Shown: piece after piece, positions 1 through 6,988 of the stretch
How the letters are laid out: each line of letters opens with the position of its first letter
Position numbering within the stretch: the first letter of the stretch is position 1
From: Pseudomonadota bacterium
GTDB lineage: Bacteria; Pseudomonadota; Gammaproteobacteria; Acidithiobacillales; Acidithiobacillaceae
NCBI GenBank assembly: GCA_021840785.1
Contig: JAKBXD010000098.1
Location: forward strand, 1-6,988
DNA length: 6,988 nt
Direction: 5' to 3'
Position numbers and translations under genes: made by a program
The notes under the pieces: generated by a model
Told to the model about the DNA's origin: nothing
What the model saw: the letters and a program-made list of their open reading frames with translations, nothing else
The model's database searches: none

Positions 1-192
1 GTCGGGTAAACAGTCTGGTGAATCGAGCGCACTCAACGGCGGGCGAACAAGCAATCCCACCTTTCCCGCATCCTCGTCACCCAGTCGACCCGCGATGATT
101 CGCGACTGTAGACGCGTATAACCAGCCGCTGCTGCGGCACAAAAAACATCTTGCGACAATGGCCTGTCGATGATCCGTATGGGTTCTGGCAT
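1..192 (-). CDS. recJ: Element-borne replacement 5' end of recJ (RecJ N-terminus, partial, runs off left edge)
   Basis: An open frame starts at ATG 192-190 and stays open for 64 codons to base 1. Its product begins MPEPIRIIDRPL and contains GYTRLQSRIIAGRL near residues 24-37. It aligns ungapped over all 64 residues with the start of the interrupted recJ at 6483 (31 identities by eye, including RI-DRP, GYT-LQ-RIIAGRL and a shared LPD at 62-64). Codons differ freely between the two copies, so this is not a recent duplication. RecJ is the cytoplasmic 5'-3' single-strand DNA exonuclease of recombination and mismatch repair; this part precedes the DHH catalytic motifs. The start overlaps the stop of the upstream small gene (TGATG), and an AGGA ribosome site lies 9 nt upstream. 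I infer that it fuses to the host recJ remainder left of the window. A complete RecJ/DHH gene carried by the element is the alternative. Confidence 0.78.
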   Translation of the reverse strand, partial: MPEPIRIIDRPLSQDVFCAAAAAGYTRLQSRIIAGRLGDEDAGKVGLLVRPPLSALDSPDCLPD

Positions 193-6039: not shown

Positions 6040-6046
6040 CCAAGCC

Positions 6047-6059
6047 CCAATTTAATTGG
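6047..6059. repeat. Palindrome in the integrase leader
   Basis: CCAATT-T-AATTGG is a perfect inverted repeat with 6-base arms and a one-base centre. It lies between the predicted transcription start and the first ATG of the 411-aa integrase, touching the GGGG ribosome site. It could be an operator for autoregulation or a recombinase contact; its function is unproven. Confidence 0.45.
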
Positions 6060-6070
6060 TCAGTACAAAC

Positions 6071-6099
6071 TGTATACTCCAATAACACACTAATATCAA
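6071..6099 (-). promoter_or_regulatory. Sigma70-type promoter of the recombinase operon
   Basis: On the minus strand TTGATA (6099-6094, five of six matches to TTGACA) is followed by a 17-base spacer and TATACA (6076-6071, four of six matches to TATAAT). Transcription would start near 6064 and give a leader of about 25 bases before ATG 6039. The surrounding stretch is clearly AT-richer than either flank. The promoter can drive the whole operon, including the recJ segment at its end. Readthrough from the upstream rpfE-type/recJ transcript could add to it, since no terminator is seen between them. Confidence 0.6.
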
Positions 6100-6107
6100 T
6101 GATATTA
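6091..6107. promoter_or_regulatory. Perfect 8-bp-arm palindrome over the -35 box (candidate operator)
   Basis: TAATATCA-A-TGATATTA has 8-base arms and a one-base centre. It completely covers the predicted -35 box (6094-6099) of the integrase promoter, where a dimeric repressor would block RNA polymerase. The HTH-bearing DUF6262-like protein or a recombinase are candidate binders, but nothing in the sequence proves this. Confidence 0.5.
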
Positions 6108-6141
6108 TTATTGCGAAGTGAACACATCTCCGCATCCGCTC

Positions 6142-6203
6142 CCTTCAAACTACTTGGACGAAGATTACCCGTCTGGACGGGCAGGCCAAGTCAGTATTGA
6201 AGG
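6142..6203. repeat. Nested inverted repeats at the element terminus (candidate recombinase binding sites)
   Basis: The outer arms CCTTCAAACTACTTGG (6142-6157) and CCAAGTCAGTATTGAAGG (6186-6203) are inverted copies except for two extra bases in the second arm (CCAAGT and TTGAAGG match exactly). Between them lies an inner palindrome, CCCGTC-TG-GACGGG (6168-6181). The set starts 8-10 bases inside the recJ junction, where tyrosine recombinases usually bind inverted arms next to the crossover. There is no following T-run, and the inner loop of two bases is too tight for a normal RNA hairpin, so a terminator is less likely. Confidence 0.5.
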
Positions 6204-6204
6204 T

Positions 6205-6483
6205 TCATATTGCCGCATCGAAGTCGGAAATCAGGAGGATGGGCAACCCTTGTTTTATGGCGGAGACGATGCATTCAGAAGCGATGTCGATATCAGGCAG
6301 CAAATCCGGCGGGGTGAGGCCACTCAACTGCAGATTCAGCAACTCCGGCAGTTTCGCCAGATCGGCCTCGCTCAATCTACCGGCAATGATCCGGGCCTGG
6401 AGCGGGGTATATCCAAGCTCCAAAGTCGCGCGCAATATCGCCGCTGCCACAGGACGGTCGACAATGCGCGCGGCTTCAGACAC
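6205..6483 (-). pseudogene. recJ: Host recJ 5' fragment, interrupted by the element within DHH motif I
   Basis: The gene starts with GTG at 6483, directly after the TAG of the RpfE-type gene. The product begins MSEAARIVDRPV, a beginning like that of proteobacterial RecJ proteins, and reaches GLPILLISDFDA at residues 79-90. In RecJ (for example E. coli IIVVGDFDADGATS) these residues are strand one and motif I of the DHH exonuclease domain, whose aspartates bind the catalytic metal. Here D-F-D-A is followed by A-I-stop instead of D-G-A-T, so only 92 of the several hundred residues of RecJ remain. The tail codons and TGA stop come from the element. The fragment lacks nearly all of the catalytic domain and should be inactive. 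It could instead belong to a RecJ-like DHH paralogue, but the RpfE-type neighbour favours recJ itself. Confidence 0.78.
6211..6216. other. Inferred element/host attachment junction inside recJ
   Basis: On the minus strand the host sequence GACTTCGATGC still encodes D-F-D-A; the next bases (GGCAATATGA) no longer match the DADGAT coding pattern. The crossover therefore lies within or just beside this Ala codon and the next. The exact base cannot be fixed without the left junction or an empty site. Confidence 0.6.
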
Positions 6484-6988
6484 CTACCAGCCCCCCGGCA
6501 GCGCATGGCCCGGCCGGGCCGGTCCGCGCCAGAAGCGCCAGCGATCCGTACGGCGAAGCGTAAGGCGCTCTATACCACCGCTGGCAAGCACCCCCGTCAA
6601 ACACTCCAGGCGCCCGCCGCTCCGCCACAAGGATTGCAGGGCCGGGACCAGCGCCGCGAAAGACTTTGCCGCATCGGGATAGAGCCAGGCTCCGGACCAG
6701 ACCCAGAGCAGATCATCGGGGAGTTTTACGGCGGCCTGCAACGCTTTGGGATAGGACAGGGGCAGACCGAGCCAGCGGGCCGCGGCCTGCAGGTAGTCCG
6801 CCTCCGCCGCCACGGTCTGCCACCGCGGAATGGGCCGCGCAGCAGGTAATCGCCCCTCCCCCCAGGCCCAGAACAGACACCAGGGTTCCTGACCGTCGGC
6901 ATCGACATCCTGATTGACGGGATGCGCGGCGAGGAGCATTTGCAACTCATTGAGGAAGGCATTCCAGCGCCGGGCATCGGTACCGGTG
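6484..6988 (-). CDS. RpfE-type / phosphoglycerate mutase-like protein, C-terminal part (starts beyond right edge)
   Basis: The frame is open from the right edge to TAG 6486-6484, about 167 residues. It holds RRWNAFLNELQMLLAAHPVN, then a Trp-rich stretch (CLFWAWGEGRLP, PRWQTV) and ends WRFWRGPARPGHALPGGW. I recognise the FLNELQMLL-x-x-HPVN and WGxGRLP signatures from the RpfE / putative phosphoglycerate mutase-like family of beta- and gammaproteobacteria, usually about 300 residues, so roughly the first half is missing. The molecular role of this family is poorly defined; in Xanthomonas rpfE belongs to the cluster for pathogenicity-factor regulation and lies near recJ. The TTG at 6945 is not a real start because the conserved motif continues upstream. 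The codons are very GC-rich, unlike the element. The stop is followed immediately by the recJ GTG, so both were probably one operon. Confidence 0.7.
   Translation of the reverse strand, partial: TGTDARRWNAFLNELQMLLAAHPVNQDVDADGQEPWCLFWAWGEGRLPAARPIPRWQTVAAEADYLQAAARWLGLPLSYPKALQAAVKLPDDLLWVWSGAWLYPDAAKSFAALVPALQSLWRSGGRLECLTGVLASGGIERLTLRRTDRWRFWRGPARPGHALPGGW

Follow-up and report, generated by a model that had tools for sequence, protein, structure and literature searches.

Gene organization of the window

The window (the whole stretch of 6,988 nucleotides that was analysed) was found to contain, on one strand, the C-terminal part of a host rpfE/apgM-like gene, a 5′ fragment of host recJ, a four-gene operon resembling ginABCD, and the beginning of a second recJ, the element's own, designated RecJ′ (Table 1). 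By this anatomy the element looks like a GInt, the class being assigned on layout. An rpfE-like gene lay directly upstream of intact host recJ in all five genomes fetched for that comparison, and the host recJ fragment of the window ends just past "...LLISDFDA" (RecJ motif I). The AT content was 57% over positions 6040–6205 versus 36% in the host flank. The ginD-like gene was 82% and 84% identical by tblastn to its counterparts at loci L001 and L002, respectively, and its product had no Pfam match reaching the cut-off; no tRNA was found in the window, nor any Rfam match. The ATG of RecJ′ at position 192 shares one base with the stop codon of the ginD-like gene (TGATG), in agreement with an earlier note on this DNA, made from the letters alone, which had placed a recJ sequence last in the recombination operon of the element.

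Residues 1–64 of frame 192→1 were aligned without gaps to residues 1–64 of the host recJ fragment (6483–6205), with 30 identities, or 31 (the number counted by eye in that note) when the GTG start of the host fragment is taken as Met. Alternative registers from −4 to +4 gave 3 to 9 identities, and in 2000 trials with shuffled host sequence the best of 9 registers never exceeded 15.

Table 1. Positions of features in the window and of the corresponding recJ genes in related genomes (window coordinates unless another locus is named)
Feature	Position	Strand	Basis or remark
Host rpfE/apgM-like gene, C-terminal part	6484–6987	−	Weak model matches below cut-off
Host recJ 5′ fragment, truncated in motif I	6205–6483	−	Final codons before stop element-derived
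Insertion junction in recJ motif I codons	6213–6219	−	GATGC/GGCAATATG..., crossover base approximate
gin-proximal element end up to insertion junction	6040–6214	−	Base composition
ginA-like tyrosine recombinase, 411 aa	4804–6039	−	Pfam PF00589 above cut-off; PHROG integrase, 1e-15
ginB-like large tyrosine-recombinase-related protein, 661 aa	2814–4799	−	Weak PHROG integrase match, E 0.0012
ginC-like third tyrosine-recombinase-related protein, about 718–721 aa	652–2817	−	Weak integrase matches only
ginD-like small protein, 157 aa	192–665	−	tblastn to L001, L002
RecJ′, first 64 codons	1–192	−	Cut by left edge of window
Complete RecJ′, L001	6139–7905		Full-length relative of window frame
Complete RecJ′, L002	2259–4028		Full-length relative of window frame
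Host recJ 5′ part, G973 (4.2-Mb contig)	1789518–1790309		Followed by gin operon
RecJ′, G973 (same contig)	1796535–1798190		
Host recJ 3′ part, G973 (same contig)	1812730–1813566		

Related operons and the complete carried RecJ

Of 7996 candidate proteins scored against the 720-aa recombinase, 174 were relatives. A scan of genome contigs gave 19 loci with a ginC-like gene (L002 and L018 being cut by contig ends), of which 17 had a GinA-like and 18 a GinD-like gene, and a scan of viral contigs gave no relative of the third recombinase. Of 369 genomes searched in the class of G001, G001 (locus L017) was the only one found, and of 57 in the order of G002, G002 (L001) and G003 (L002) were the only ones. 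At L001 and L002 (recombinase 81% identical) the small gene runs directly into a complete RecJ of 588 residues. Complete carried RecJ genes were present at L001, L002, L017, L162 and L203, and in G001, G002, G003, G050 and G973 the frame remained element-type to its own stop. The earlier note had predicted a frame open through motif I and continuing as host-type recJ; the open frame through motif I was seen in these relatives, and what followed it was element-type RecJ. In G050 (L162, 6610–15051) a much more divergent three-recombinase operon with the layout kept (422, 868, 684 and 199 aa) was likewise located in recJ and followed by a complete RecJ.

A search with RecJ of the L001/L002 type returned a large family, of which the best 120 matches were listed. 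The closest to the window among these, P0124 (605 aa), had 63 of 64 residues identical to the window N-terminus and was element-type through to its end, so that the closest allele among the matches listed is not a host-recJ chimera. DHH, DHHA1 and RecJ_OB domains were detected above the Pfam cut-offs in RecJ′ of L001 and L162, and the conserved RecJ motifs were kept, by eye, in alignments of RecJ′ to two solved RecJs. RecJ′ scored below the TIGR00644 cut-off of 396.9 bits in G001 (348), G002 (338.7), G003 (339.4) and G973 (345.8).

Split host recJ and insertion junctions

Host recJ was split in 5/5 genomes in which the gin operon and RecJ′ occurred together, to which the partly visible case of the window can be added as a sixth; the interruption of recJ by the element, claimed previously, was borne out. 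Because G050 and G973 were found by a recJ search, this tally is biased, and the operon alone, through which G001, G002 and G003 were found, gives three. In TIGR00644 positions, the host pieces covered 3–65 and 64–509 in G002, with the carried gene in between; 2–267 and 266–542 in G001, on two contigs; and 2–266 and 266–543 in G973, on a single contig with RecJ′ in between. In G003 only the 64–542 piece was present, the contig ending before the other, and in G050 the 5′ and 3′ parts were on separate contigs. The order in G973 was rpfE–recJ5′/gin operon–RecJ′–cargo/recJ3′, spanning about 22.4 kb, and where the carried gene and the host 3′ part were on one contig (G002, G003 and G973) they were 8 to 15 kb apart.

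The left junction of G002 was ...GACTACGATGCCG/CAATATGAACC and the right junction ...CGTATT/GATGCCG/ATGGGGCGACC, with GATGCCG present at both element ends. The insertion in G002 is at the site of the window (GATGCCG/CAATATG), and the left junction of the window (GATGC/GGCAATATGAACC) was the same as in G002. The junctions were in motif I for the window, G002 and the far end of G003, and in the PRxNAAGR motif for G001 and G973; G002 and G003 had the far junction in common, and G001 and G973 the recJ site.

For the host recJ 3′ part of G002, no in-frame start codon was found between the last stop and the beginning of this part, an internal start gives a 476-aa frame, and a cysM-like gene (named by eye) lies beyond it. 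In G050 and G001 an in-frame start was present upstream of the junction. Since the host 3′ parts stay open with starts in G001, G002 and G050, a truncated host RecJ product is possible. In G028, two recJ genes above the family cut-off (on contigs C28 and C114) were found in one assembly, which is possibly a mixed bin.

G001, G002 and G003 are labelled as MAGs, with pieces on different contigs. An assembly artefact was ruled out by the occurrence of the 5′ piece, the full copy and the 3′ piece on one contig in seven genomes, namely G973 for recJ, G007 and G009, G377 and G410, and G383 and G429, the last six representing the targets described below.

Other target genes

The set of operon-bearing genomes comprised 30 (19 from the contig scan, nine more from a later search, and G050 and G973). 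An interrupted target together with a complete carried copy was found in 14/30 (recJ in five, a radical-SAM gene in five, pncB in two and a hypoxanthine-DNA glycosylase gene in two), with all three parts on one contig in 7/14. The other 16 consisted of three radical-SAM cases without a copy or ambiguous, two PAPS-reductase-like cases, and 11 not assigned to any of these classes.

The radical-SAM gene, which we take to be PA0069-like, was interrupted at its CxxxCxxC motif in eight genomes, and a complete copy besides the pieces was present in five of them (G007, G008, G009, G018 and G298). G006 had the 5′ piece and, on another contig, a complete gene, with no 3′ piece; no complete copy was found in G010 or G275, the latter having a partial one. 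As a control, 17 other operon-bearing genomes were searched for a second complete radical-SAM gene, and it was found in none of them. Split genes with a complete copy were found in both pncB genomes (G377 and G410) and both glycosylase genomes (G383 and G429). No copy was found in the fetched loci of G004 and G015, where a PAPS-reductase-like gene (named by eye) was split, in 60 kb downstream of an ABC-permease-like insertion in G401, or in about 42 kb at a DUF455-like insertion in G014 (both also named by eye).

In the pncB and glycosylase islands the copy starts about 140–170 bp past the host 5′ fragment and is co-directional with it, and in the recJ islands, where visible, RecJ′ points the same way as host recJ 5′; the native promoter could serve the copy in either placement. 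In the radical-SAM islands of G008, G009 and G018 the copy was at the far end, reversed in G018.

Several further features were recorded. The same island was present in three sphingomonads (L003, L014 at 6440–6745 and 15259 onward, and L004), with the PAPS-reductase-like gene split in two of the three and no replacement copy seen in the locus. Two glycosylase 3′ pieces lay near one island in G429 (C12:217323–217679 and 219668–220021), perhaps from a second insertion. A RecD2-like helicase gene (by eye) followed the GInt-type operon in an Azonexaceae MAG (L016, 12955–16087) and in Microvirga (L019, 12841–15234); its 3′ pieces were duplicated at L016, possibly another replacement pair. At L005, in an Acidobacteria MAG, the GInt-type operon was inserted in the radical-SAM gene; the accessible part of the GInt paper does not list this phylum as a host. 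Cargo recognised by eye at L001 (8939–14222), L017 (15989–21818), L006 (15891–19032) and L013 (13420–14832) resembled metal-efflux/copper or defence-like genes (helicase, ATPase, TIR-like).

Phylogeny, divergence and constraint of the carried copies

A tree of 66 proteins was constructed with hosts from all 30 intact-host loci, two short host pieces of G001 being left out. A branch with 100/100 support parted the four element RecJs (G001, G002, G003 and G050) from 33 host RecJs, the element side also holding the "relocated" RecJs of G070 and G072 and 27 of the 120 listed database relatives. Since these 27 were picked for similarity to the element gene and the hosts came solely from the order of G002, the tree argument is carried by the four element rows against the host rows. 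Origin of RecJ′ by simple duplication of the host gene was ruled out, the carried and host RecJs lying across the 100/100 branch.

RecJ′ of G002 and G003 were 95% identical (dS 0.20, dN/dS 0.11), and the host recJ 3′ parts of the same genomes 69% (dS 1.5); RecJ′ of G001 and G973 were 88% identical (dS 0.66, dN/dS 0.10), and their host recJ 5′ parts 57% (dS 1.39). The dN/dS of the host recJ pieces (0.18–0.27) is expected if the host genes were cut only recently. These values are read as movement of the recJ islands between distant hosts with landing in the same gene, and the carried RecJ looks functional, constrained and mobile as judged from its sequence.

The glycosylase copies were 94.6% identical between the two hosts, the hosts' own genes 71%, and each copy was 52–55% identical to its own host's gene. 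The radical-SAM copies of G008 and G009 were 98% identical (dS 0.18; host dS 0.79) and near those of their own hosts (88% and 96%), and those of G018 and G298 were no closer than the host genes (56% both). The pncB copies had 85% protein identity with saturated synonymous sites, so that recent sharing of these copies is not supported; the host pieces had 71–82% (dS 0.56–0.93), and copies and host gene 63–74%. The distance of a carried copy from the host gene thus varies, the recJ, glycosylase and pncB copies being far. In the four pairs where it was computable, dN/dS of the carried copies was 0.05–0.11.

Element-type RecJ outside gin islands

In the family of G018, a RecJ scoring with the element type was found in 8/233 genomes, at 582–866 bits versus at most 431 for the others among the matches listed. 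One of the eight, G973, had a gin island in recJ, and also a second element-type RecJ elsewhere. Six others (G845, G884, G885, G913, G980 and G984) had intact host recJ with the extra RecJ elsewhere and no gin operon near it within the stretch fetched; these extra genes (L211, L207, L205, L201, L200 and L209, respectively) lie in apparently mobile contexts. In G958 the sole RecJ was element-type, with no gin operon within its 9-kb contig. An element-type RecJ, being present outside gin islands, therefore need not be a replacement.

An element-type RecJ was the only complete RecJ found in G070 and G072. In G072 (L164, 2712–6075, and L232, 300–2081) the intact element-type RecJ adjoins rpfE, and on a different contig a decayed host-type recJ remnant, from near family position 265, adjoins the cysM-like gene. 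This genome reads as an old insertion in which the carried recJ would have taken over the role of the host gene. In G070 (L163, 7273–15775) the element-type RecJ lies between rpfE and the cysM-like gene.

Interpretation

The window is best explained as one end of a GInt-type island located in motif I of host recJ, which carries a complete, divergent RecJ as the fifth gene of its operon and so compensates for the insertion; we put the probability of this reading at about 0.8. The island would insert in motif I and split host recJ, transcription from an island promoter and/or the native rpfE–recJ promoter would proceed in the same direction through ginABCD into RecJ′, and RecJ′ would supply RecJ activity, making the insertion tolerable. 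Restoration of RecJ function by the carried copy is likely, judged from sequence comparison. The earlier proposal that the element makes good the damage of its insertion thus appears sound for the relatives that carry a complete RecJ, with a complete gene, not a replacement 5′ end, as the compensating part, and it is more general than recJ alone: the same arrangement at other target genes suggests a strategy of the element type, not an accident.

It is unlikely that RecJ′ is a general accessory exonuclease for DNA processing or defence whose location in recJ is unrelated to its function. The six genomes with an element-type RecJ, intact host recJ and no gin operon in the stretch fetched, and the second element-type RecJ of G973, would be accounted for in this way, but host recJ was split in all five genomes with the operon (two of them found through recJ) and in none of the six without it. 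Sister islands in other genes, including pncB, carry a copy of the gene that they interrupt, and the second radical-SAM gene was found in 5/8 interrupted genomes (a sixth being ambiguous) versus 0/17 other operon-bearing ones.

Similarly improbable is a neutral by-product, in which faulty excision would have picked up the copy next to the attachment site in a previous host. Capture predicts copies at the very end of the island, as found for pncB and glycosylase next to the host fragment, and the saturated synonymous sites of the pncB copies give no sign of a recent common origin; however, the copies are intact with low dN/dS in the four computable pairs, and RecJ′ lies inside the operon beside ginD, not at the far end. 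Capture may nevertheless be how the copies originated.

The chimeric RecJ proposed in the earlier note, in which the element would contribute just the start of recJ, joined in frame to the 3′ end of the host gene, agrees with the 64 codons visible in the window by itself and with documented islands at prfC (SXT) and dusA (PMC8409611), but is very improbable given that in all five split-recJ genomes the element-type gene is complete and the remaining 3′ part of host recJ is found either at the far end of the island or on a separate contig, and that P0124, which matches the window N-terminus, stays element-type to its end.

Extending the preferred reading, that of a compensating complete gene, we somewhat favour the view that each GInt lineage interrupts a conserved gene within the DNA encoding a conserved motif, carries a complete portable version of that gene, and can thereby sit in the middle of a core gene and over time replace it across species; G072 and G070 look like endpoints of such core-gene replacement. 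If true, this would make it understandable that site-specific islands can occupy the interior of conserved genes, a position expected to carry a cost, would allow the attachment site of an island to be predicted from its own cargo, and would provide a route for core-gene swaps between species via mobile DNA. For annotation, a recJ, pncB or similar gene that looks unusual, scores low and adjoins three integrases may be the sole working copy.

Comparison with known systems

GInts, called the Tn6571 family in the accessible part of PMC10121019, are characterized in that of PMC5385486 by a four-gene operon (three integrase-related proteins and a small protein), all four genes being required for excision and integration, by cargo starting from the end of the fourth gene, and by high site specificity. 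The window has three tyrosine-recombinase-related genes and one small gene (6039–192), in the window and in L001 the first codon of RecJ′ overlaps the stop of ginD, and insertion is site-specific, the radical-SAM islands also hitting one common motif. Flanking imperfect direct repeats of about 10–17 nt and a short AT-rich far end are further traits given for GInts in the available text; the far end of G002 had about 50% AT versus 32.5% in the host, the nearby cargo itself having 40–53%, and that of G001 had 32–55%. Operon transcription of GInts is described as entering from outside and likely running on into the cargo (PMC5385486). The same source, as far as accessible, argues that GInt insertion probably does not abolish target function altogether (outward promoter, altered ends), gives gene ends, intergenic sites or the target 5′ end as insertion sites, and notes a ribonucleotide reductase gene, described as "duplicated", with an insertion at its end. 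Its accessible part describes neither an insertion in the middle of a gene with a complete carried copy nor recJ, whereas both are found here. Among literature titles and the beginnings of abstracts, a set that mostly leaves aside subscription papers and preprints, no target-matched replacement by GInts was found.

Strand-biased circularizing integrative elements, Tn554 and RIT likewise encode two or three tyrosine-recombinase-type proteins, and a small helper protein is also present in the first two and absent from RIT (accessible part of PMC10214605). In the same part, RIT elements have three recombinases without a fourth recombination gene, whereas a conserved fourth gene is present here; a carried target-gene copy is not mentioned there, and neither "recJ" nor "target gene" appears as a term in the text.

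The SXT/prfC and dusA islands, as described in the accessible part of PMC8409611, also compensate for insertion in a conserved gene, by fusing an N-terminus and a promoter of their own to the host gene. An in-frame fusion of the element N-terminus to the host remainder was absent in the relatives read; unlike those islands, the present elements carry the whole gene and leave the host 3′ part behind.
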